39,920 nt of DNA from a virus. The number at the start of each line of letters is the position of its first letter. Positions within the stretch are counted from its first letter, which is position 1. The translations under genes were made by a program, and so were the position numbers. Below the pieces are notes generated by a model, which searched no databases, was not told where the DNA came from, and saw nothing but the letters and a program-made list of their open reading frames with translations. This document shows, piece after piece, positions 6,924 through 39,920 of this stretch. The stretch is from the IMG/VR virus record IMGVR_UViG_3300048547_000321, positions 1-39,920 of that record; one strand, written 5' to 3'.

Positions 6924-7304
6924 TTAGATTGCTTTAGTTCCGTAGGTTTTAGTCCAGCCGATTGAGTCGCAATACCACTCCTCAAGAGTGTAGTCAAAGA
7001 CAGGGCAGATCACATGTTTTACCGCCACCTTATCGCCAACAGACATTGAGAAAAAGTTGATGTCATGATTCTTGCATGAGCAAAGACCAATCTTATATTC
7101 GTTATTCAAGTACTCTTGAAGTGGAGTGTGGATTTCAGTAGGAGCGTTAGTAGCTACGAACAGCTCTTCAGCGATTTCCTCACCAGTCATATTGAGTAAC
7201 TCCTTATGGTCAGTTTCAAAGGTCATCAAGACTTCGTAGTCTGAATCGATTGGTTCGCATCTGCGATTAGTAGGGCGAGTGATTTGGATTTTAACGTAGT
7301 TCAT
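6924..7304 (-). CDS. Hypothetical early protein (126 aa)
   Basis: I do not recognise this 126-aa protein. It has an acidic middle (TGEEIAEELFVATNAP) and several Cys (LCSCKNHD, VICPVF, WYCDSIGW) that do not form an obvious zinc site. The start is set by the repeated leader CTACTAACCTACTAAAAAATACTACTATG-type context and a promoter at 7346-7374 behind phased A-tracts. It is the first gene of its own unit, followed by the hairpin at 6889-6913. Confidence 0.6.
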   Translation of the reverse strand: MNYVKIQITRPTNRRCEPIDSDYEVLMTFETDHKELLNMTGEEIAEELFVATNAPTEIHTPLQEYLNNEYKIGLCSCKNHDINFFSMSVGDKVAVKHVICPVFDYTLEEWYCDSIGWTKTYGTKAI

Positions 7305-7345
7305 AGTAGTATTTTTTAGTAGGTTAGTAGGTTGGAATTAAGAGT

Positions 7346-7374
7346 AGTGTGGGCTATGAATTAACGAATAGCAA
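7346..7374 (-). promoter_or_regulatory. Early promoter with upstream phased A-tracts (unit of the 126-aa gene)
   Basis: On the minus strand TTGCTA (7374-7369) and CACACT (7351-7346) are separated by 17 bases. Just upstream, 7385-7410 carries A-runs alternating with GTTT every 9-10 bases, which is typical of bent DNA or an UP element. The same layout recurs at 7919-7947 and 8548-8576. The -10 here is the weakest of the set. Confidence 0.55.
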
Positions 7375-7415
7375 GCGCATTAGAAACTTTTTTTAAACTT
7401 TTTTTTGAATCATGT

Positions 7416-7661
7416 TTAGTGAATAAAAGGGACATTGCAAGGAGGCTCATCCACGAGCCTATCTATAGCTTCAGATATAGCCTCACATCTCCACTCAGCA
7501 ACCTGCTGACCATAGCCTGTTACTTGAGAGGACGTTTCACCATTCTCGAAACTGCATTCGTCATTTGCGATAACTGCGATATAACAGTCATCTTTATCAT
7601 CGACAACGACACAGTTGAGCCTCTTAGCTAATCGTTTAAGTTCAGCGATTCTGGTTTTCAT
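7416..7661 (-). CDS. Small hypothetical early protein (81 aa)
   Basis: The start at 7661 (MKTRIAELKRLAKRL) is chosen because the ATG directly follows the leader CTACTAACCTACTAAATACTACTACT. A longer reading would translate the leader and overlap the next gene. The 81-aa product has a basic N-terminal helix, then VVDDKDDCYIAVIAND and a C-terminal AISEAIDRLVDEPP helix. No family is recognised. It shares a promoter with the 59-aa gene upstream. Confidence 0.55.
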   Translation of the reverse strand: MKTRIAELKRLAKRLNCVVVDDKDDCYIAVIANDECSFENGETSSQVTGYGQQVAEWRCEAISEAIDRLVDEPPCNVPFIH

Positions 7662-7698
7662 AGTAGTAGTATTTAGTAGGTTAGTAGTTGAGTATAAA

Positions 7699-7878
7699 TT
7701 ACCATGCGAAACGAACAAGTTTGCAACTTGCGATTTCGCGACAAATTTTAGCACCATGTCCAGTTCCGATTCTGTCACCATCAACAAAGTAAGCAGCACC
7801 TACTTTAGTTACATTGCTTCCAGAGCGAATAGCTTTGCGGATTTCAGAGAGAGAAGATTTGATGCTTAGGTTTTTCAT
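7699..7878 (-). CDS. Small basic early protein (59 aa)
   Basis: The start at 7878 (MKNLSIKSSLSEIRKAIRSG) follows the leader motif ending AATAATACTACT. Starting further upstream would run through the promoter region. The 59-aa protein is basic, with an N-terminal amphipathic helix, a VGAAYFVDGDRIG turn and GHGAKICREIASCK. No family is recognised. It is the first gene behind the promoter at 7919-7947. Confidence 0.55.
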   Translation of the reverse strand: MKNLSIKSSLSEIRKAIRSGSNVTKVGAAYFVDGDRIGTGHGAKICREIASCKLVRFAW

Positions 7879-7918
7879 AGTAGTATTATTTAGTAGGTTA
7901 GTAGTTGAGTGTAATAAT

Positions 7919-7947
7919 AGTATGTTTGATAAAATAACTAATAGCAA
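7919..7947 (-). promoter_or_regulatory. Early promoter with phased A-tracts (unit of the 59-aa and 81-aa genes)
   Basis: The minus strand reads TTGCTA (7947-7942), 17 bases, CATACT (7924-7919), then ATTATTACACTCAACTACTA as the likely start of the leader. A-runs alternating with GTTT and AGTT fill 7951-7980. The terminator of the previous unit (7984-8006) lies immediately upstream, so this is a clean unit boundary. Confidence 0.65.
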
Positions 7948-7983
7948 GCGTTTTTGTAACTATTTTTAAACTTTTTTTGAAAT

Positions 7984-8006
7984 AAAAAAAGGGAGCTTTC
8001 GCTCCC
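7984..8006 (-). terminator. Rho-independent terminator after the 122-aa gene
   Basis: On the minus strand GGGAGC and GCTCCC pair around a GAAA tetraloop, followed by seven T residues. The stem starts nine bases after the stop codon at 8015-8017. T residues on the other strand (8011-8016) would let it work in both directions. Confidence 0.9.
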
Positions 8007-8501: not shown

Positions 8502-8547
8502 GATAGTAGTAGTAGTTTTTAGTAGGTTAGTAGTTGAGTGTAATAAT

Positions 8548-8576
8548 AGTTTGCCTGCCTGAATTACTAATAGCAA
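8548..8576 (-). promoter_or_regulatory. Early promoter with phased A-tracts (unit of the 32-aa and 122-aa genes)
   Basis: The minus strand carries TTGCTA (8576-8571), 17 bases, CAAACT (8553-8548), then ATTATTACACTCAACTACTA, identical to the start of the leader at the 7919 promoter. A-runs with GTTT fill 8580-8607, and the terminator at 8613-8640 lies just upstream. Confidence 0.6.
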
Positions 8577-8612
8577 CTCTTTTATAAACTTTTTATAAAC
8601 TTTTTATTAAAT

Positions 8613-8640
8613 AAAAAAGCCCCACTTGTTAAGGTGAGGC
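8613..8640 (-). terminator. Rho-independent terminator after the 151-aa gene
   Basis: On the minus strand GCCTCAC and GTGGGGC pair (one G-U) around an eight-base loop and are followed by six T residues. It begins seven bases after the stop codon at 8648. The stem resembles the terminator after the capsid gene at 24822-24858. Confidence 0.85.
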
Positions 8641-14247: not shown

Positions 14248-15246
14248 TTATTCTTGCCAAGAGTGATTTTTAACTACGTGCTCAATAACTTCTACAAGAG
14301 TTTGTTCTAGTTTGATTGGAGGAGTCCATCCAGCCTTATATATCTTCGAACTGTCAAGTGCATACCTGCGATCATGACCAGGTCTAGTTTTATGAAAATC
14401 TTCAAACTTGTAATGTAGTTTTTCTCCCATCAGGCTCGCAATTCTTTTAGCGAGTTGCAAGTTATCTATTTCTTCTAGCCCTGCGATGTTGAACTTGGTA
14501 GGACGCTCGCATTCGTATGATTTGTATATGTTGAAATCTATTTTGTTATACATGAAAAGCCAAGCATCTACGAGGTTACGGCAATCAATATACATCCTAG
14601 AACCAATTCTATCAGGCGATCCATGAACTAAAAGCTCTTCACCCTTCAGCACCCTGCTCACTATTTTAGGCAGATATTTTTCAGGATCTTGTTTAGTGCC
14701 AATCATATTCATGCAATGAGTGACCGCGATCGGAGTTCCGTATGTTCTCCAGTATGTGAAGCATAGAGCATCTTGAGCAGCCTTAGAAGCAGCGTATGGG
14801 TTAGATGGGCAGGTAATGTCCCACTCTATATGACTATATCCATCCTGAGCAGCTCCAAAGACTTCATCTGTAGAGCAATGGATGAATTTTTCCAGCGTAT
14901 CCAGCCCTCTAGCGTATTCAAGTATATTGCCAATTAGTCTAGTATTTGATTCCCAAACGTATATAGGGTCACTTATAGATGTGTCTACGTGAGATATAGA
15001 CGCACAGTTTAGTATGTAGTGGACATCCCCCAATCTCATTTTCGTACGATGCGATATAGGAGCGTTAAGATCATGGCAAACGATGCTATATCGGTTAGAA
15101 TCTATTGATTTAGAGATTCTTTCAGCATCACCCATGTGACGAAAAGAGTCTAGCCCTATGATTTTCCAGTCAGTTTTTTCTAACAGGTATTCAACAGCGT
15201 GAGAGCCTACGAAACCAGCACTTCCAGTTATGAGTATAGTTTTCAT
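14248..15246 (-). CDS. NAD-dependent sugar-nucleotide 4,6-dehydratase/epimerase (RmlB-like)
   Basis: This 332-aa protein is an extended short-chain dehydrogenase. GSAGFVG (8-14) binds NAD, STDE (125-128) is the signature of nucleotide-sugar 4,6-dehydratases, and Y151-AAS-K155 is the catalytic pair. The likely product is a 4-keto-6-deoxy sugar nucleotide, though an epimerase or decarboxylase of the same family is possible. It shares one base with the glycosyltransferase gene upstream. The pair may supply and attach a sugar to a virion protein, host surface sugar or DNA. Confidence 0.8.
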   Translation of the reverse strand: MKTILITGSAGFVGSHAVEYLLEKTDWKIIGLDSFRHMGDAERISKSIDSNRYSIVCHDLNAPISHRTKMRLGDVHYILNCASISHVDTSISDPIYVWESNTRLIGNILEYARGLDTLEKFIHCSTDEVFGAAQDGYSHIEWDITCPSNPYAASKAAQDALCFTYWRTYGTPIAVTHCMNMIGTKQDPEKYLPKIVSRVLKGEELLVHGSPDRIGSRMYIDCRNLVDAWLFMYNKIDFNIYKSYECERPTKFNIAGLEEIDNLQLAKRIASLMGEKLHYKFEDFHKTRPGHDRRYALDSSKIYKAGWTPPIKLEQTLVEVIEHVVKNHSWQE

Positions 15247-29482: not shown

Positions 29483-29797
29483 TTAGAGGGATTCGATAAT
29501 CCCAAGTGGAGTTTCCTGCCAATTATTATTTAAACGACTGACGTATTCCTCGACTGTGATCGAGGAGTTGCAAAGAACTTTGATGAAACGATTCTTTTCA
29601 GCAACTTTGCGACCATACTTGAAACGAGCGATGAACTCACTTTTGTTCACTCCGACGCGACTTGGATGGCAATCAGGATGTGTATCCTCCCAGTTTACTG
29701 AGTCATTGTGGCGACCTTCATACATGAGATACATGCCATCCCAGCTGAAGTCATTAGAGTTGAAGAATGTTCCTGATTTAGTAGTAGTGTTTTTCAT
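29483..29797 (-). CDS. Hypothetical early-type protein (104 aa)
   Basis: I start at 29797 (MKNTTTKSGTFFNSND), directly after the leader ACTACTAAACTACTAAAAAA and TACTACT; an upstream in-frame ATG would read the leader. The 104-aa protein has an SWDGMYLMYEGRHND and a HPDCHPSRVGVNKSEF segment with Cys and His residues that do not make a standard zinc site, and a C-terminal helix. No family is recognised. It has its own promoter at 29850-29877 and ends at a terminator. Confidence 0.6.
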   Translation of the reverse strand: MKNTTTKSGTFFNSNDFSWDGMYLMYEGRHNDSVNWEDTHPDCHPSRVGVNKSEFIARFKYGRKVAEKNRFIKVLCNSSITVEEYVSRLNNNWQETPLGIIESL

Positions 29798-29849
29798 AGT
29801 AGTATTTTTTAGTAGTTTAGTAGTATCACCCATCGTTGAGCTTATATTT

Positions 29850-29877
29850 ACTATGGCTGATAAAAAAACAAAAGCAA
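29850..29877 (-). promoter_or_regulatory. Early-type promoter, cassette unit 2 (104-aa gene)
   Basis: On the minus strand TTGCTT (29877-29872), 16 bases, CATAGT (29855-29850). Phased A-runs with GTT and GTTT fill 29878-29910. Sequence from CAGCCATAGT through the leader to the ATG nearly repeats the promoter at 31848-31875, so one is a duplicate of the other. Confidence 0.6.
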
Positions 29878-29932
29878 ACTTTTTTTAACTTTTTTTAAAC
29901 TTTTTTTTCTCACCTGCATTATGTGTAAATAG

Positions 29933-31417: not shown

Positions 31418-31795
31418 TTATATGTTCAGGACGTAGAAACTTTTGTCGCGATTTCCAACACTAGAAATGAGCTTTCGATTTTTATCATTGTTAGGAATCG
31501 ATTGAATATTACATAGCTCGTCATCAATCATCCAAGTGATTAGGGTTGTATTACTGATGCAACCGCCACCAGCTTCGAACTTATTAAGAAGTCTGATGTC
31601 GCATTGAAATGTGTAAAGGACTTCTTTACGACCGCAGTATTCGATAACTAAGAACTCTTGAACAGCAGCTCGTTTTTTAACATCTTCGACTTCTTTATCG
31701 AAAACAGCAGGGTTGAATCCGCGATTAAGACCGCCAGCTTCAGCGATTGCATCTTCGAGGTTATTGTGACGAGAGAGGATTGTGATGTTTTTCAT
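31418..31795 (-). CDS. Hypothetical early-type protein (125 aa)
   Basis: I start at 31795 (MKNITILSRHNNLEDAIAEA), directly after the leader and its TACTACT; longer readings run through the promoter. The 125-aa product has a first helix, KKRAAVQEFLVIEYCGRKEV strands, and a C-terminal SVGNRDKSFYVLNI strand. No family is recognised. It is the first gene of cassette unit 1, behind the promoter at 31848-31875. Confidence 0.6.
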   Translation of the reverse strand: MKNITILSRHNNLEDAIAEAGGLNRGFNPAVFDKEVEDVKKRAAVQEFLVIEYCGRKEVLYTFQCDIRLLNKFEAGGGCISNTTLITWMIDDELCNIQSIPNNDKNRKLISSVGNRDKSFYVLNI

Positions 31796-31847
31796 AGTAG
31801 TATTTTTTAGTAGTTTAGTAGTGTCACTCATCGCTGAGCTTATATTC

Positions 31848-31875
31848 ACTATGGCTGAGTGTAACCATAAAGCAA
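31848..31875 (-). promoter_or_regulatory. Early-type promoter, cassette unit 1
   Basis: On the minus strand TTGCTT (31875-31870), 16 bases, CATAGT (31853-31848), then GAATATAAGCTCAGCGATG and the leader. A-runs with GTTT fill 31878-31908 and reach the terL stop codon, so the promoter was placed tightly against terL. It is nearly the same as the promoter at 29850-29877. Confidence 0.6.
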
Positions 31876-31908
31876 GTCTTTTTAAACTTTTTTTAAACTT
31901 TTTTTTAA

Positions 31909-33711
31909 CTAGCTCCAAAAACTAGTTGCAGACCTACCACCTCGAACCTTTTTAGGTTTAGGTGTAATGTCTTGATCTACATCTATTCTAGCGATGCCTA
32001 CGAACTTTGATAAAGCTCTAGCAAGTATTTCGCAGTCCCAAAGGTGATCACCTCTATTTCGCTTTACTTTCTTTACAACTTTGATATGACCCGACCTATC
32101 AGTTTCTTTAGTCCAGTATGTAGCAAAAAGTTGATCGTAGTAAACTTTCGGAGTATCGGTGAAAGTGTAGAAACCTGATATTTGAGCAGAACGCAGGCGA
32201 GCTAGTTCATCTTCATACAAACTTTTATTTACATGCAAGTATCTGATTTTCGATTTACCTGCTCTACCTTTATTATCACCAGTAAACGGATCTTTCATTT
32301 GCATTCTGTATGGCTGATCACCTTGTAATGTTTTCCAGCCTCTTGATCCGAACCATTTTGACCTACGCTTGTGAACCTCTTCATATATCTCAGCAGTTCG
32401 ATTACCTGCACAGTCGATAATTGCACATTGGCATGTATGTTGATCATACTTCCCATCCAACTCAGCGAAAGTCGCAACCTGACCGCAGTCGATTAGATAA
32501 CTATCGCCATCTCTATTGAAACCGCGAACTACAAACCAGAAAGATTCAGATTGAGTATCGGCAGAAAGTATTCTTACTTCACCTTTTAAATCACCCTGTT
32601 GATAATCTAATTCTAATTGATTAGCATCAGCCTGATCTTGATTTGCCCAATCTTCACGCCAAGGTTCAGCCAAGTTACCCTGAACGAACTTTTTTAGTCC
32701 ATGCGTAGAATGACAAACTTGAAGCCATGCAACCATAAGTGATGCAAATGTCATTGCAGGCGCATACATAGAATTAAGGTGATAACTGTGATGACCTCTA
32801 GGTGCATTAGGATTATCTGAGACCCATTCGCCATTCTTAATCATGTTAGGTTTATGTGCATCTAGTATTTTCCCATCGCACTCAGGGCATCTGTAATATG
32901 CTGATGATGTTACAAGTTCGAAATCGTATCCGTCTTCGAGTTTTGCATCTTCATTGAAGGCTACAGAATATCTTAGTTTGCCATCTTTATCAGTTTGCCT
33001 CCAAGTGAACTCTATTTTTTCATCGCAATGAGGGCAGGGCATTTTGTATTTACGTTGATCGCCATAAAGATATTCCTCCCATATGCCACCCTGTTCATCT
33101 TTAGGTGTAGAAGTTTGTATTATCTTGTATTGTCTGCGACCCTTAATACGTTCAAGAGCAGCTAGTCTTATGTCAGGGTCAATCTCATCAATTTCATCAA
33201 GCACAAGGTAAGCAACAGGCGCAGACTTAACATTATTCTCCGACCCTGCACCTGCGAAAGTTAGTGTGCATGACAGGAATTCTTGACGCATATTAGTTAT
33301 CTTTTCTGAATCTACCCTGCCAGTAGCGATGCTTAATGGGCATTGCTCCTTAAGAGGTTTGCAGTCATCAATGAAAGGTAGCCATCTACCCTTTGAAAAC
33401 TGTCTAGCGTTTTCAGCTGAAGGCATGATCCATAGAGTATCCTTAGGGAACTCACTTAAAAGATATGCTATGCCTGCATACATAGTCGTAGTCTTACTAG
33501 ACTGAGAACCCCAGCAAAGAGTTACTTTGTTTACATAAGGGTCAATCAAATCTTCAAGAGGTTGCTTAGCATAGGGAAATATGCGCAAGGAACCAGGAAG
33601 TTCAGATATATTATCGCGAAGAGTGCAGTTATTGAATGCCCAATCGACTGGAGACTGTAGTTTTCTACGCGAGTATAGTTTTGATATTTTGTTATCTAAC
33701 AATGAAGCCAT
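31909..33711 (-). CDS. Terminase large subunit, lambda gpA family (600 aa)
   Basis: This 600-aa protein is the packaging motor and end-cutting nuclease. Walker A WGSQSSKTT (67-75) and Walker B LVLDEIDE (169-176) mark the ATPase. CPHC (near 226) and CPEC (near 273) form the zinc motif typical of gpA-type terminases. The nuclease domain has CAIIDCAGNRTAEIYE (near 430) and a C-terminal DHLWDCEILARA motif. gpA-type terminases usually cut at cos sites. Its start overlaps the 255-aa gene by 20 bases. Confidence 0.9.
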   Translation of the reverse strand: MASLLDNKISKLYSRRKLQSPVDWAFNNCTLRDNISELPGSLRIFPYAKQPLEDLIDPYVNKVTLCWGSQSSKTTTMYAGIAYLLSEFPKDTLWIMPSAENARQFSKGRWLPFIDDCKPLKEQCPLSIATGRVDSEKITNMRQEFLSCTLTFAGAGSENNVKSAPVAYLVLDEIDEIDPDIRLAALERIKGRRQYKIIQTSTPKDEQGGIWEEYLYGDQRKYKMPCPHCDEKIEFTWRQTDKDGKLRYSVAFNEDAKLEDGYDFELVTSSAYYRCPECDGKILDAHKPNMIKNGEWVSDNPNAPRGHHSYHLNSMYAPAMTFASLMVAWLQVCHSTHGLKKFVQGNLAEPWREDWANQDQADANQLELDYQQGDLKGEVRILSADTQSESFWFVVRGFNRDGDSYLIDCGQVATFAELDGKYDQHTCQCAIIDCAGNRTAEIYEEVHKRRSKWFGSRGWKTLQGDQPYRMQMKDPFTGDNKGRAGKSKIRYLHVNKSLYEDELARLRSAQISGFYTFTDTPKVYYDQLFATYWTKETDRSGHIKVVKKVKRNRGDHLWDCEILARALSKFVGIARIDVDQDITPKPKKVRGGRSATSFWS

Positions 33712-34459
33712 TGCGTTTAGCGAATTTTTTTGCAGTTGATTTCAGGCTCTTACGAGCAGCTATTTCGAAACCTTTTACTTGAGAATTGAATGCTTTCCTA
33801 AAACTGTCTAGACCTTTTGCATTGGGATTTAACGCAGCTATAGATTTACTTTTTAGTATAATTGTATAATTACCTTCACCCATATTAGTTGCTTTAGCTC
33901 CTATAGCCCTCATGTGTGACAATGGGAGTTTTACTTTTAATGCAGCAGCTAGACCTTTAGCTTTTAATAAAGGTATTCTTAGCTTTCTGAGCATGTATAT
34001 GAAAGTAGCTTGACCAGATGCTATATTCTTTTTCTTTTTTGTTAGCATTGATTTCCTTTTTTTCCTCATCTCAGACAATGCTTTATTTATAGCACTAGTT
34101 TGTTTTTTGCTAAATGTTTTATTATTAGGACCCTTATTACTTGTATTGTTTAATGAATATTTATTTCTAATTTTTATCCATTTGTTATTACTAATAGTTG
34201 CACTCTTTACAACCAATGATCCATCTTTAGCTTTTCTGACTTTAGTTTTATTGCTAGATGTAAAAATTCTAGAAAGCGAACGATCAACATCTTCTACTAT
34301 TTTTTTGTAATTAGCTTTGCCAGTTTCTCTAGCAGCATTTTGCAGGACATCTCTAGCATAGCTATCGGTAGCTTCTTTTGCAGTTACTTTTACCTGCTGA
34401 CGTAGCTTGCCAATCATATTATTGAAACCTTTATCATTTAGTTTTACTAGCTTTGCCAT
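33692..34459 (-). CDS. Basic protein between terminase genes (255 aa)
   Basis: I do not recognise this 255-aa protein. It is very basic, with a central Lys-rich stretch (MRKKRKSMLTKKKKNI) and a helical C-terminus ending in FAKRNGFIVR. It has no enzyme motif and no membrane segment. Possible roles are DNA-associated packaging factor or minor virion protein. It overlaps the terL start by 20 bases and lies 24 bases after the DUF6378-like gene. Confidence 0.6.
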   Translation of the reverse strand: MAKLVKLNDKGFNNMIGKLRQQVKVTAKEATDSYARDVLQNAARETGKANYKKIVEDVDRSLSRIFTSSNKTKVRKAKDGSLVVKSATISNNKWIKIRNKYSLNNTSNKGPNNKTFSKKQTSAINKALSEMRKKRKSMLTKKKKNIASGQATFIYMLRKLRIPLLKAKGLAAALKVKLPLSHMRAIGAKATNMGEGNYTIILKSKSIAALNPNAKGLDSFRKAFNSQVKGFEIAARKSLKSTAKKFAKRNGFIVR

Positions 34460-34847: not shown

Positions 34848-34919
34848 TCTCCGATGGGTGGATAAAAGGGATATACTAAAACCCACCTACATCTTAACAG
34901 AAGGACTACCCATCGGAGA
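34848..34919 (-). other. 12-bp perfect hairpin spanning the terS stop codon, upstream of the mini RNA
   Basis: TCTCCGATGGGT (terS end, 34919-34908) and ACCCATCGGAGA (34859-34848) are exact reverse complements around a 48-base loop. An alternative inner stem GATG/GGTGG with CCACC/CATC uses part of the same 3' arm, so two conformations can compete. The loop holds TTATCCAC, an 8-of-9 match to a DnaA box. The whole lies between terS and the tmRNA-like element, with the 3' arm eight bases from it. Confidence 0.6.
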
Positions 34920-35538
34920 AAATCTTTTCAATCTCAGAAAAGACTCTATCGTCAAGTCCATTGCGAATAGCAAGTTCAGCTATCTGCGGATTCTCAGGAT
35001 TTGCCATTGTGGCGATTTCTCTAGGTAGTCCATCTAGAAGTCTGCGTAGAGGTGTAAGTAGCTTAATAACTTTCTCAGCAGCCTCCGATTCGGGTATAAG
35101 TGACTCTGCCTTCATCTTTAGTTCCAATTCCCTGAGGGATGCCACAGCAGCTTCTTTCCTGCCCTGCTCTTCAGTTAGTTTTTTACGCAAGTCATCCATA
35201 CTTGCACTTGAACCATGTTTGGATTTACGATTCTTTTGAAGCAGGCGAATGTAGTTTTTTATAGATTGCCAAGATTTGTATCTGCCATTGGATACTTTTA
35301 ATATTACCTGATCTTTAGCTAGATTTGCGATTTGTTGAGCCGTGACTCCAAATAGATCAACTAGCTCAGAAGTTTTAATTATTGAATCATCACCTAATCT
35401 GTCAGGAGAAACATCCTGACTTTGTGATTCTAAAAAAGAAGATTCTTGAGCTGTTAGCGATTTTCCATCTTTAACCTTAGCTACAATGTTAGAGAGTAGC
35501 TTCTTATTTACATTATCGAGTAGGGATTGATCTATCAT
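34906..35538 (-). CDS. Terminase small subunit, Nu1-like (210 aa)
   Basis: This 210-aa protein has an N-terminal helical region, then a winged HTH near 54-85 (TSELVDLFGVTAQQIANLAKD followed by a short strand and YKSW), as in lambda Nu1-type proteins. The rest is coiled-coil (DDLRKKLTEEQGRKEAAVASL) and a C-terminal helical domain. It would recognise the cos region and load the gpA-type large subunit. The stop codon is part of a strong hairpin. It overlaps the glycosyltransferase gene by four bases. Confidence 0.75.
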   Translation of the reverse strand: MIDQSLLDNVNKKLLSNIVAKVKDGKSLTAQESSFLESQSQDVSPDRLGDDSIIKTSELVDLFGVTAQQIANLAKDQVILKVSNGRYKSWQSIKNYIRLLQKNRKSKHGSSASMDDLRKKLTEEQGRKEAAVASLRELELKMKAESLIPESEAAEKVIKLLTPLRRLLDGLPREIATMANPENPQIAELAIRNGLDDRVFSEIEKIFSDG

Positions 35539-36353
35539 TTATGACTATTGCGTAGAGCCTTAGCTAACGCACTTTTTCTTTTAGCTCTAGGTGATTGATC
35601 ATTTAGTCTTAATTCAGCATGACCAGTAGTTTTACGAATATACATCTTACAATACTGAGGAAACATACTAGCTATTTTTTTAATTGAGTCATGTATGTAT
35701 TTCTCAGTCCTAACCTCTTGAAGTCCACCAGCCTCATGATAGTAAACAGTTTTAGCTGTTATATCATCAAGCCTGATGACAACTTTATTCTTATGATATT
35801 GTCTGAGGCAATATTCATAATCTTCACCATGATTTGTTTCACGTGCTAAAAAATTATCATGCTCTACGACTACGCCAAACATGCATCCAACTATATAGGA
35901 AAGTTTAGTGTATGTCCTATGCTTCATAAAAAAAGGATTTGAAGCAGCATATATTCCAAAGAGTTTCGCTCTATGTTTATAACAGGCTTTGAAACCACGA
36001 AGTATAACATCCTGCTCTAAATCGGAAACAGTAATCAACTTGTCATCTGATTTAGTAAGCACCTGTTCAATGTCATCGTCAAACATCATCAGGTTAGTTC
36101 CTTCAGGATAGTAACGCTCAATGAAATTACGTTGAAGTCCAAGCGTAGCTACACCTTTTACTATTTCTATATCTTTAGCGTATTCGTTAGTCGAAAGAGC
36201 AGTTTTATATTTATCGTATTCGTCAGAATCTTCATCATTAACGAATATCTTGATAAGGCTAGGGTCAATGCCATGACCTTCAAGAAATTTAAGAGTCTTA
36301 GACTGAATGGTATCGTGACGTTTGTAACTAGGTATTACAATTTTATATTTCAT
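35535..36353 (-). CDS. TAGT/GREB1-like glycosyltransferase of DNA base modification (272 aa)
   Basis: This 272-aa GT-A-like protein begins KIVIPSYKRHDTI, then has IFVNDEDSDEYDKY and a triple Asp in MMFDDDIEQ (92-94). A HGEDYEYCLRQY motif lies near 174-185. These match the TET/JBP-associated glycosyltransferases from which the vertebrate GREB1 domain derives (family known from comparative analysis by Iyer and co-workers). Such enzymes are predicted to put sugar on hydroxymethylated bases. Its position next to the dioxygenase in the same operon supports that role here. Confidence 0.7.
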   Translation of the reverse strand: MKYKIVIPSYKRHDTIQSKTLKFLEGHGIDPSLIKIFVNDEDSDEYDKYKTALSTNEYAKDIEIVKGVATLGLQRNFIERYYPEGTNLMMFDDDIEQVLTKSDDKLITVSDLEQDVILRGFKACYKHRAKLFGIYAASNPFFMKHRTYTKLSYIVGCMFGVVVEHDNFLARETNHGEDYEYCLRQYHKNKVVIRLDDITAKTVYYHEAGGLQEVRTEKYIHDSIKKIASMFPQYCKMYIRKTTGHAELRLNDQSPRAKRKSALAKALRNSHK

Positions 36354-37033
36354 TTTAGATTTTTATTTGTATGATTAAGCCAAGTGCCAGCCTTGAAACA
36401 TTCCACGTAATAATCATTTCTGTCTATTTCTTTCCATGCTTCATTTTTCCACTTAGTCCAAACAACATGATCAGGAATTGTATCTGGTATGTATTTTTTT
36501 AAACATCGAGCCAAGAATTTAGGACCAGTAGTTTGTAAAACAAATCTAGCCTTCCAAACATCATATATTTCCATTGATGCTTTTCTTTCATAGTTATATA
36601 CACAATCTCGCATGGTTAGTTCCCAAAACTTGTATCCCTTAGTGCTACCTATGAAATCATTAACAACAGATTCAGTAGTGTTAGGATTGAGATGTTTTAT
36701 ATTGTGAAGTAAAATTCTATGGCGAGTTAGAGGATTGAAACTTTTTATGCAATGCATATCTAAGTCCATGTAAAAGCCACCCTCATGATGTAATATGCAG
36801 AACCTTATGAAATCTATTTTCTGTATATCGTATCTAAAGTTATGATAGAACTTGTCGTATTGAGGGTAATGATTTTTTACAAGTGATGAACATTCATCTT
36901 CAGTCCATAACTTATGTTCGAAATCAGGATTAACCTTTTTTGCTATTTTTATGCTGTTACTGAATAATTCAATTTTACTTACATCTTTATTTTGCCAGTT
37001 GAAGTATATTTGATGTATTTTTTTAGGTATCAT
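36350..37033 (-). CDS. GT32-type glycosyltransferase with DXD motif (227 aa)
   Basis: This 227-aa protein has the GT32 (Gly_transf_sug, OCH1-like) pattern: IPKKIHQIYFNW (2-13), then HHEGGFYMDLDM (near 82-93), which carries the DLD nucleotide-sugar metal motif. It overlaps the dioxygenase gene and the TAGT-like gene by four bases each. With two different glycosyltransferases, the modification may be a disaccharide, or each could act on its own acceptor. The donor sugar is unknown. Confidence 0.75.
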   Translation of the reverse strand: MIPKKIHQIYFNWQNKDVSKIELFSNSIKIAKKVNPDFEHKLWTEDECSSLVKNHYPQYDKFYHNFRYDIQKIDFIRFCILHHEGGFYMDLDMHCIKSFNPLTRHRILLHNIKHLNPNTTESVVNDFIGSTKGYKFWELTMRDCVYNYERKASMEIYDVWKARFVLQTTGPKFLARCLKKYIPDTIPDHVVWTKWKNEAWKEIDRNDYYVECFKAGTWLNHTNKNLK

Positions 37034-37824
37034 TTTAGTTTATCTAGTTCAATTTGCCTAGCCCTGAGCAATTCATCATCTAAAGTTAAACATTTCCACA
37101 TACCTTTTAGGCTGTAATAAACGACTGAGAATCTGTAACCATCGTCTGAAGTAGGATTCATGGGACTAACTCCATGCATTATTTTTTGACCATCAAACAT
37201 GAACAGGGAGTTATGTTTTAATAGGAATCGAGCATTGATTTCAGGAACGCAAAGCCAACCACCCTCCATTTCCTCACGCAATACAAGCATACAGCTTAAA
37301 ACATCTTTGAAGTTACCTGCATCAAAGTGATATGATAGTGGATTGTTTTTATTTACAATGCCACTTGTGAAAAGTGAGTCAGGCATACGCCACTCATCTA
37401 CAACTTTGTCGAGCAGTTCCTTATGTTGATCGGCAGTATCAGGTGCAACTTTGAAATATCGTTTAGTTATTTCCGATGCTAGCCCTCTGAGCATAGCTTC
37501 AGCTTTAGGATTCTCACGAGCTAGGCTTGTCTGATTGCAAAAAGCACGTTGTCTACGCTCAAGTCTAGGTTGATATCCGAAAATTCTACTCGTAGTTACT
37601 AAACCTCCAGTCCTAGTAGTCTCAGAGTATTTCATTGTTTTGAGTTCATGAACCAAGTTATCAGTATCCATTCCGATCATGTCATAAACACAAACCAAAT
37701 TATCATTCTGATCGAATACCTTGCATGGCTCAGTTATTTCTAACAAACAGTCATCGGCAGATGCTCTACGTTTAACATATTTCTTATAGTTAATTTTTTT
37801 TCTATTAACTACCTGAATCTTCAT
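37030..37824 (-). CDS. TET/JBP-family 2-oxoglutarate/Fe(II) dioxygenase (264 aa)
   Basis: This 264-aa protein has the TET/JBP double-stranded beta-helix features. RTGGLVTTSRIFGYQPRL (71-88) and an LARENP segment (101-106) resemble phage TET/JBP proteins. The iron ligands are His166 and Asp168 in SYHFDAGN and His217 in HGVSP, and Arg231 in YRFSVVYYS would bind 2-oxoglutarate. It should hydroxylate the methyl group of thymine or of 5-methylcytosine in DNA. No DNA methyltransferase is present in the window, so a thymine substrate (JBP-like) is a reasonable guess. Four-base overlaps join it to the next genes. Confidence 0.75.
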   Translation of the reverse strand: MKIQVVNRKKINYKKYVKRRASADDCLLEITEPCKVFDQNDNLVCVYDMIGMDTDNLVHELKTMKYSETTRTGGLVTTSRIFGYQPRLERRQRAFCNQTSLARENPKAEAMLRGLASEITKRYFKVAPDTADQHKELLDKVVDEWRMPDSLFTSGIVNKNNPLSYHFDAGNFKDVLSCMLVLREEMEGGWLCVPEINARFLLKHNSLFMFDGQKIMHGVSPMNPTSDDGYRFSVVYYSLKGMWKCLTLDDELLRARQIELDKLK

Positions 37825-38434
37825 GATATGCTTTTAAAACTGAGTTATAAATTAGTTGAGAAGGGACTGTATCTTTATCATCGCAAATTTTAGTTATGAT
37901 ATTAGAGAAAACCTTATAATCATCCTCATCGTAAATTAGCTTAACAGTTTTGATTCCTGATTCATCCTCATCTATCTCAAACTCTACCTCACCGCCAAGA
38001 ACCATATCATCATGAAACTGACCTATGATTGCATCAAGCATAGCTTCATCGTATCCAGTATTGCCAACCTCACCGCCAAGTAAACTTATTCTCTCAATTA
38101 CATCGGCAAGAACTAAATCATCGATTTGAGACATTGCTGTTATTCTGTTATCAGCAATCATGTCAGCCATCTCATCAGTTAAGCTATCGTAATCTTGATA
38201 TTCGACTGGAACCTCATCCCATCTATTTGATTTTGCAGTTTCAAAAAGTAGTCTGCCTTTTACAATTGTAGCATTATCTCTAGAACTAACTACAATGCAG
38301 TTACGCCAACCATTTGCATTTATGATTTTAGTCAGCGTATCTATTTGAGATTTGCTATGTATGTATGGACTATGCTCATGAACCTTAAGTTCAGTCACCT
38401 TACGCAACTCAGTATGTGAACAATGTATTTTCAT
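37805..38434 (-). CDS. ParB-like protein 2, degenerate motif (209 aa)
   Basis: This 209-aa protein is a paralogue of the 205-aa protein upstream: both open MKIHC, then LRKVTELKVHEHSPYIHSK-type text and WRNCIVVSS against WRRPIVVSN. The canonical GHGRFQAA motif of ParB-like domains is replaced by VKGRLLFETA, while ADNRITA is kept. The usual ParB nuclease or CTP-binding site is thus altered. It probably aids targeting of the modification enzymes or lost activity. It overlaps the dioxygenase gene by 20 bases and the first paralogue by four. Confidence 0.65.
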   Translation of the reverse strand: MKIHCSHTELRKVTELKVHEHSPYIHSKSQIDTLTKIINANGWRNCIVVSSRDNATIVKGRLLFETAKSNRWDEVPVEYQDYDSLTDEMADMIADNRITAMSQIDDLVLADVIERISLLGGEVGNTGYDEAMLDAIIGQFHDDMVLGGEVEFEIDEDESGIKTVKLIYDEDDYKVFSNIITKICDDKDTVPSQLIYNSVLKAYHEDSGS

Positions 38435-39048
38435 GGGTGTAGGTTTTTAAGAATGGTTAAAATAGTCATACTAGGATTTTTGCAGTTGTAGATTTTTTGC
38501 AGACTTTCAATCATAGGAACGAGTTTGCTATGTTCCTCTAGTGTATAGTGAAGTATAAGAGATTTTTGACCTGCAGACTCCTTAGGATCAATATCAACTT
38601 CACGCTCAAGGACTAGATCGTTATTCTCAATTTCAATGCTATTGATTATTGATTCTACCTCACCCTCAGTATAGCCAGTTTCAAATTCATCTGTATCTAT
38701 TTTAGATAAGGCATCTTTTAGCTTATCCATATCTACGTCAATCAGTTCAGTAATTCGATTGTCTGCAACTAGGTCTTCAAGTTCAGCCTGCTCTGATTCG
38801 TATTCCTGTATATCGACTGGAACCGCTGCAAGATTGAGCAGCTGAGCAGCCTGAAATCTACCGTGACCTTTAATGATTACGTTTTTACCAGTTCGATTGC
38901 TGACTACGATAGGTCTACGCCAACCATGCTTTTTAATGATTTTTGCTAGTAGCTCAATTTGGCTATCAGGATGTGTATTGGGATTCTCAGGATGCTCCTG
39001 AATCTCACCAAGTTTTATTTCTTTTGAGTATGTGCAGTGTATTTTCAT
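38431..39048 (-). CDS. ParB-like protein 1 (205 aa)
   Basis: This 205-aa protein has the ParB/Srx-like N-terminal domain: HPENPNTHPDSQIELLAKII (near 18-37), WRRPIVVSNRTGKNVIIKGHGRFQAA (near 43-68) and LVADNRITEL (near 92-101). In phages such domains often sit with DNA-modifying enzymes and may bind or nick DNA. Here it is the first gene of the TET/JBP operon, starting after the gap with the cos-like sequence. The rest (100-205) is helical and acidic. No partition partner ParA exists here, so segregation is unlikely. Confidence 0.75.
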   Translation of the reverse strand: MKIHCTYSKEIKLGEIQEHPENPNTHPDSQIELLAKIIKKHGWRRPIVVSNRTGKNVIIKGHGRFQAAQLLNLAAVPVDIQEYESEQAELEDLVADNRITELIDVDMDKLKDALSKIDTDEFETGYTEGEVESIINSIEIENNDLVLEREVDIDPKESAGQKSLILHYTLEEHSKLVPMIESLQKIYNCKNPSMTILTILKNLHP

Positions 39049-39640: not shown

Positions 39641-39915
39641 ACTGAGCTATCTTCAGGTATATTAGCCAAGACTGGATCACTGATTAGCTTAAGTAACTCA
39701 GGTGATTGTATATCCCAAGGTTCAGTACCAGGAAAACAACCTCCATCATCTAAACATGATTCAATGGTTAAAAATTGCCTTTCGAGCATCTTGATACCCT
39801 GCTTATATCTTTTAGATACTGCAGAAGCTTGATTGCTTAGTTCACGCATGGCGATGTTAATCTCACGCATTTCTCTTAGTGCTTTTAATTCATATGTATT
39901 TGCGTCCATAGGCAT
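39637..39915 (-). CDS. Hypothetical coiled-coil protein (92 aa)
   Basis: This 92-aa protein has an N-terminal heptad-like helix (ELKALREMREINIAMRELSN) followed by a Gly/Pro-containing C-terminal part (DDGGCFPGTEPWDI). The family is unknown. The ATG at 39915 or the one two codons on (39909) could be used. The two nucleotide differences between the two copies of this region are synonymous, which argues that it is translated and under selection. A possible promoter lies at 180-208 on the circular map. Confidence 0.65.
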   Translation of the reverse strand: MPMDANTYELKALREMREINIAMRELSNQASAVSKRYKQGIKMLERQFLTIESCLDDGGCFPGTEPWDIQSPELLKLISDPVLANIPEDSSV

Positions 39916-39920
39916 ACTGA
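39738..39920. repeat. Terminal overlap, right copy
   Basis: This copy matches positions 1-183 with two substitutions (39766 and 39793). It marks the join of a circular map. See the left copy for interpretation. Confidence 0.9.

Follow-up and report, generated by a model that had tools for sequence, protein, structure and literature searches.

The phage TET enzymes that have been characterized experimentally use 5-methylcytosine (5mC) made by a partner methyltransferase, whereas a large family of methyltransferase-free TET operons has been called 'thymine hypermodification' by inference only. Which base does such an operon modify, and what is added to it? The question is raised by a five-gene locus in a phage described as marine, IMG/VR record IMGVR_UViG_3300048547_000321, whose 39,920 nucleotides constitute the window analyzed here. 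The locus encodes two ParB-like proteins, a TET/JBP Fe(II)/2-oxoglutarate dioxygenase (hereafter TET), a GT32-type glycosyltransferase, and a TET-associated glycosyltransferase (TAGT). This phage very probably oxidizes a pyrimidine of its own DNA, most likely thymine, and adds one or two sugars to it as a protection against host defenses. We assign a probability of about 0.6 to the reading of the operon as a cassette for post-replicative hypermodification of DNA bases, acting by a thymine route, in the order ParB, TET, TAGT, and GT32. With its small and probably complete genome, a minimal cassette, and relatives set apart chiefly by the enzyme that decorates the oxidized base (the decorator), the phage makes two questions directly testable: whether a phage TET/JBP enzyme hydroxylates thymine in DNA, which if true would suggest that base J chemistry began in viruses, and what role ParB-fold proteins play in DNA modification.

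A five-gene cassette adjoining the terminase genes

The original prediction, made from the letters of the window, had described five overlapping genes that run directly into the gene for the small terminase. All five open reading frames (ORFs) were found where it had placed them, on the minus strand: ParB1 (38431..39048), ParB2 (37805..38434), TET (37030..37824), GT32 (36350..37033), and TAGT (35535..36353). Their successive junctions overlap by 4, 20, 4, and 4 bases. TAGT in turn overlaps by 4 bases the small terminase gene, TerS, on the packaging side of the cassette (34906..35538, minus strand), whose identity comes from a match to phrog_57 (9e-18). The large terminase gene, of the GpA family, lies further downstream (31909..33711, minus strand; Pfam GpA_ATPase, 1.2e-39). 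The order ParB1, ParB2, TET, GT32, TAGT, TerS recurs in a relative, L002. Searches with hidden Markov models placed four of the five cassette proteins, ParB1, TET, GT32, and TAGT, above the curated Pfam cut-offs. A scan of the region for promoters and terminators performed at chance, with 20 found against 19.9 expected.

The dioxygenase scored 40.3 bits against Tet_JBP (PF12851, 2.5e-10; cut-off 34.9). The metal ligands H166, D168, and H217 and the 2-oxoglutarate-binding R231, four residues already singled out in the original prediction, are invariant across 82 sequences, as is the base-stacking Y237. No matches were returned when the Protein Data Bank (PDB) was searched with the single sequence; profile and fold searches succeeded. 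A profile built from 16 phage TETs retrieves human TET2 (2e-5) and NgTet1, and the AlphaFold model (predicted local distance difference test, pLDDT, 92.9) finds only TET2, NgTET1, CcTet, and CMD1 at PDB ranks 1-26 (best E 9e-13), followed by FTO and ALKBH2. By family, fold, and active site the protein is a TET/JBP oxygenase, and sequence and model together predict that it oxidizes 5-methylpyrimidines in DNA. Many phage TETs are annotated as 'queuine tRNA-ribosyltransferase', which looks like a misannotation.

Both upstream proteins proved to be ParB-like, as had been proposed. ParB1 consists of a ParB_N domain of the sulfiredoxin/ParB fold (4.5e-9; 36.7 bits against a cut-off of 26.3; phrog_498/phrog_620) and a C-terminal domain, and its motif KGHGRFQAA is intact and kept in all relatives examined. 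ParB2, a diverged tandem paralogue that is ~35% identical to ParB1, gives no Pfam match; its ParB-like character comes from matches to ParB PHROGs (3e-22) and from its alignment with ParB1. In each of the six genomes compared, its GHGR motif has been lost (KGRLLFETA). This loss might be taken as decay, with the whole cassette vestigial or neutral and the DNA unmodified in practice. We find that scarcely credible: the ratio of nonsynonymous to synonymous substitution (dN/dS) is 0.03-0.18 for all five cassette genes in every comparison among relatives that allowed its calculation, indicating purifying selection, the genes are intact, and their active sites are conserved. ParB1 and ParB2 are both under such selection, with values of ~0.10-0.17 for ParB2. 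Plausibly the two assemble into a heteromer that is loaded onto DNA or slides along it, one subunit binding nucleotide and the other playing a structural part. A general adaptor role of ParB for DNA-modifying enzymes would fit the arrangement in another relative, L038, where a second ParB directly precedes a C5-cytosine methyltransferase (C5-methyltransferase). Separately, on one phage contig of 327 kb, two TET genes are interspersed with three ParB genes (L051:7135-10465+ and L053).

Thymine or 5-methylcytosine as substrate

Bases 1-183 of the window repeat bases 39738-39920 at 181 of 183 positions (two mismatches), although the record is listed as linear. The contig is probably one whole circularly permuted genome of ~39.7 kb assembled from slightly different strains. 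Because the contig ends overlap, the genome is probably complete, and all statements about absent genes are therefore strengthened. A Pfam scan of 45 further ORFs of the window returned no DNA methyltransferase, no thymidylate synthase, and no dCMP or dUMP hydroxymethylase among the families listed (25 of 26), which makes modification at the level of the nucleotide pool, as T4 and SPO1 carry it out, unlikely. The lack of a cytosine methyltransferase, which had been noted from the window alone, was upheld by searches with the C5-methyltransferase model PF00145. No match was found in any of 21 records, comprising the window, seven close relatives, fragments among them, and 13 cultured TET phages; a control in this search was positive in 10 of 14 genomes. 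The hosts of the cultured phages span several phyla and are Mycobacterium, Gordonia, Arthrobacter, Microbacterium, Rhodococcus, Prochlorococcus, Synechococcus, Caulobacter, Pelagibacter, and Nonlabens.

In an alternative route, a C5-methyltransferase of the host or of a co-infecting element would make 5mC, TET would convert it to 5-hydroxymethylcytosine, and the glycosyltransferases would glycosylate the product. A phage TET acting on 5mC has been published (Burke et al. 2021, as summarized in PMC12730594), and several observations on the relatives of the window weigh on the same side and against thymine. Among 50 wider IMG/VR relatives, many of whose records are fragments, PF00145 exceeds its cut-off in five, and it adjoins TET in L038 (ParB-TET-ParB-C5-methyltransferase) and in L043/L044 (ParB-C5-methyltransferase-ParB-TET) only. 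These lineages occupy two separate places on the TET tree, neither inside the clade of the window, and their TETs are 43-45% identical to that of the window, so this family can adjoin 5mC chemistry; the host, moreover, could supply the 5mC. The active site adds a further point. N171 occupies the position of N1387 in TET2 and D234 in NgTet1, the residues that bind N4 of 5mC, and L239 that of TET2 H1904, NgTet1 H297, and CcTet R393, which bind O2 (PMC11040006). The asparagine thus stands where TET2 holds N4, although it could also face O4 of thymine. The O2-contacting histidine or arginine is replaced by leucine, equally in both C5-methyltransferase-linked lineages.

We examined these residues as a possible substrate test, by comparison with TET2, NgTet1, and CcTet, and rejected them: L239 is common to methyltransferase-linked and methyltransferase-free TETs, and because O2 is present in both bases, loss of the histidine is not decisive. 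Dinucleotide composition was also considered as a sign of 5mC deamination, and with CpG at 0.77 and GpC at 1.22 nothing usable emerged. A 'DNA methylase' annotated beside TET in cyanophages MED4-184 and MED4-117 was likewise discarded as a candidate, the MED4-184 protein being ParB-like (ParB_N 6e-5, below the cut-off); the annotation of these cyanophage genes (L010:6575-7216 and L019:4581-5222) looks like an error. A distant second group of phage TETs (L016, L017, L018, and L021) has arginine at the position of TET2 H1904, as in CcTet, and aspartate at that of N1387 in three of the four; these too are found without a C5-methyltransferase.

We consider thymine the probable substrate, because a C5-methyltransferase is missing from the phage and from its close relatives alike and no nucleotide-level route was found. 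Modification of 5mC made by the host is an unlikely alternative on our estimate, as is the cytosine route as a whole. It has to contend with the lack of a C5-methyltransferase throughout the 21 records, and a modification that depended on host methylation would be sparse and would vary with the host, which sits oddly with a multi-gene cassette so strongly conserved. On the economical view, this branch oxidizes thymine, the only 5-methylpyrimidine that is always present, and C5-methyltransferases were added in some lineages; the opposite history, in which the methyltransferase was lost and host 5mC came to be used, is a less economical alternative. The original prediction had left thymine oxidation and the use of host methylation both open. 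The probable completeness of the genome, the absence of PF00145 from the window, its close relatives, and the cultured phages, and the restriction of an adjacent C5-methyltransferase to two lineages now tilt the choice toward thymine.

Two glycosyltransferases and an exchangeable decorator slot

TAGT scored 53.6 bits against its Pfam family (PF20691, 3.6e-14; cut-off 27.5) and GT32 64.4 bits against Gly_transf_sug (PF04488, 1.7e-17; cut-off 23). The acidic motifs that had been reported for the two proteins read MMFDDDIE in TAGT and, as a DXD motif, YMDLDMH in GT32; D92 of TAGT is nearly invariant and D93 fully so. The AlphaFold model of TAGT (pLDDT 91.2) adopts a GT-A fold, with AvpGT, TarS, WrtF, and RmlT as its best matches at a template modeling (TM) score of ~0.5, so that the two structure models bear out the TET-type and GT-A assignments. 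TAGT also matches PHROG 842, a beta-glucosyl-HMC-alpha-glucosyltransferase (1e-15).

Of 70 non-duplicate loci surveyed for the surroundings of TET, 61 have a ParB nearby, immediately upstream of TET in 59; TAGT is found within 4 kb of TET in 37 and GT32 near TET in six. Where GT32 occurs anywhere in a locus it is always accompanied by TAGT (7/7, P 0.009, a small sample uncorrected for kinship), and TAGT is common without GT32. This pattern lends indirect support to the proposal that two glycosyltransferases make a disaccharide or two products. It would fit a scheme in which TAGT acts first and GT32 then extends its sugar, because GT32 has been seen only with TAGT. From its fold and its association with TET, we predict that TAGT makes the first sugar transfer onto the hydroxymethyl base, and co-occurrence with TAGT suggests the second for GT32. 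Alternatively, the two enzymes may work in parallel, on different sites or by placing different sugars on one hydroxymethyl base. T4, with its two parallel glucosyltransferases, is a precedent, and the slot in the clade of the window varies among GT32 with TAGT, TAGT alone, and diverged TAGTs. Parallel action nevertheless seems to us doubtful, given that GT32 never without TAGT and TAGT often alone is the pattern of a dependent second step, within the limits of that sample.

GT32 enzymes act mainly on polysaccharides and glycans, which raises the further possibility that both glycosyltransferases modify virion or host-envelope structures and merely occupy a variable slot beside the terminase. 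A nucleotide-sugar dehydratase/epimerase encoded in the tail region (14248..15246, minus strand; GDP_Man_Dehyd, 1.1e-43) and resembling dTDP-glucose 4,6-dehydratase (TIGR01181, 7e-63, below the equivalog cut-off) would suit such a role, as would the exchange of the slot by recombination. We judge this very improbable. Pfam names TAGT for its association with TET, an association borne out in more than half of the surveyed loci, and the 4-base overlaps couple the glycosyltransferases to TET and terS. Furthermore, an FkbM-type methyltransferase occupies the decorator position in 11 of the 70 loci (L010:7216-7917, L017:6527-7225, L031:8809, L036:3982, and others) and never occurs together with TAGT (0/11, P 9e-5, kinship uncorrected), as expected of alternative decorators of one substrate. 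This suggests that the product of the FkbM loci is a different one, for example a hydroxymethyl base that is O-methylated. Twenty loci lack all of the decorators tested; in the two inspected, the next gene downstream encodes a different protein of ~320-340 amino acids that, judged by eye, looks like another glycosyltransferase.

Within the clade of the window, the interval between TET and TerS holds GT32 and TAGT in the window and in L002, TAGT alone in L003, L004, L006, and L008, a diverged TAGT in L005, and GT32 with another diverged TAGT in L007; L004 carries a GT32 elsewhere, outside this slot. Between the window and L002, synonymous divergence (pS) is 0.00 for TAGT and 0.02 for GT32 against 0.18 for ParB1 and 0.32 for TerS, and L008 shares 98% identity with the window in TET and 79% in TAGT. 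Because these values differ between the glycosyltransferases and their neighbors, the sequence comparison indicates that the glycosyltransferase slot is swapped by recombination while ParB1-ParB2-TET stays constant. An exchangeable slot suggests selection for sugar variety, as in the T-even phages, and offers a source of enzymes for labeling or sequencing modified bases. A 255-amino-acid gene between the small and large terminase genes (33692-34459) is 63% identical to its counterpart in L002, against 95-98% for its neighbors, and may be another exchange hot spot.

The thymine reading can be set out as a sequence of steps. ParB1, probably with its motif-less partner ParB2, would bind or track new phage DNA and recruit the enzymes. 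TET would then hydroxylate a pyrimidine of the polymer at its 5-methyl group, most likely converting thymine to 5-hydroxymethyluracil; TAGT would transfer onto the hydroxymethyl group a sugar taken from a nucleotide-sugar; and GT32 would put a second sugar on the first or modify a subset of sites. The product, a base-J-like glycosyl- or diglycosyl-hydroxymethyluracil, would block host nucleases. TerS overlaps TAGT and appears to be translationally coupled to it, which would be explained if the modification were made just before or during packaging. A viral 'base J' with all of these features, namely thymine as substrate, a disaccharide built by TAGT and then GT32, delivery of the enzymes by a heteromeric clamp of ParB1 and ParB2, and a sugar cassette whose exchange would allow related phages to vary the sugars on their DNA, is put forward tentatively, as a possibility that we would not yet bet on.

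Other genes of the window bear less directly on the cassette. The dehydratase of the tail region could conceivably supply a special sugar donor; because of its location, a role in structural glycans is equally possible. One ORF of this phage, for which a pyrimidine modification is predicted, matches Pyr_excise (9.9e-10), a family of pyrimidine-dimer DNA glycosylases. The proteins of replication type that can be recognized are a BT4734-like/AAA_25 protein, a DnaA-C-like protein, and a PD-(D/E)XK nuclease. Dispersed direct repeats of ~40-120 bp, 75-95% identical, lie in the early region (7300-7405, 7655-7697, 7870-7989, and 8507-8618) and beside structural genes (29788-29908 and 31786-31906) and are possibly shared regulatory elements. 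One scan of bacterial and archaeal genomes found no close relatives of the TET clade of the window, and hence no host is assigned.

Comparison with known systems

A class of phage ParB-TET/JBP-TAGT operons was reportedly predicted by Iyer and colleagues in 2013. Related operons have been called thymine hypermodification or nucleotide-modification systems by their authors (PMC11955845, PMC9302106). The phage 5mC-TET system, as Burke et al. 2021 is cited in PMC12730594, combines a C5-methyltransferase, a TET/JBP enzyme, and glycosyltransferases; on that description it resembles the cassette of the window in joining a TET/JBP-family enzyme to decorating transferases in a phage, and differs in having a C5-methyltransferase of its own.

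The closest arrangements are found in cultured actinophages. Mycobacterium phage Indlovu carries ParB-TET-TAGT-deacetylase-kinase-terminase and Arthrobacter phages Altadena and Prairie carry ParB-TET-TAGT-deacetylase. Their TETs are ~28-35% identical to that of the window. Like the window, they have the order ParB, TET, TAGT and no C5-methyltransferase in the genome, and in Indlovu the terminase gene lies just downstream. Unlike the window, which has a tandem ParB, a GT32 partner, and neither kinase nor deacetylase, they have a single ParB and a glucosaminyl deacetylase in place of GT32, to which Indlovu adds a P-loop 'adenylate' kinase. Cyanophages MED4-184 and MED4-117 (ParB-FkbM methyltransferase-TET-terminase) share with the window ParB and TET beside the terminase and the lack of a C5-methyltransferase, and have the FkbM methyltransferase in place of a glycosyltransferase. 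Trypanosome base J synthesis offers a likeness in its two steps, hydroxylation of thymine by the TET/JBP enzymes JBP1/2 followed by glycosylation (PMC6449724). There the sugar step is carried out by a separate glucosyltransferase, JGT; in the window, thymine is the probable substrate. Thus, the cassette type ParB-TET-decorator-terminase is already known by prediction and annotated in cultured actinophages, and what the window adds to it is the tandem ParB with a degenerate partner, the pairing of GT32 with TAGT, evidence that decorators are exchanged, and evidence against a methyltransferase of the phage's own.

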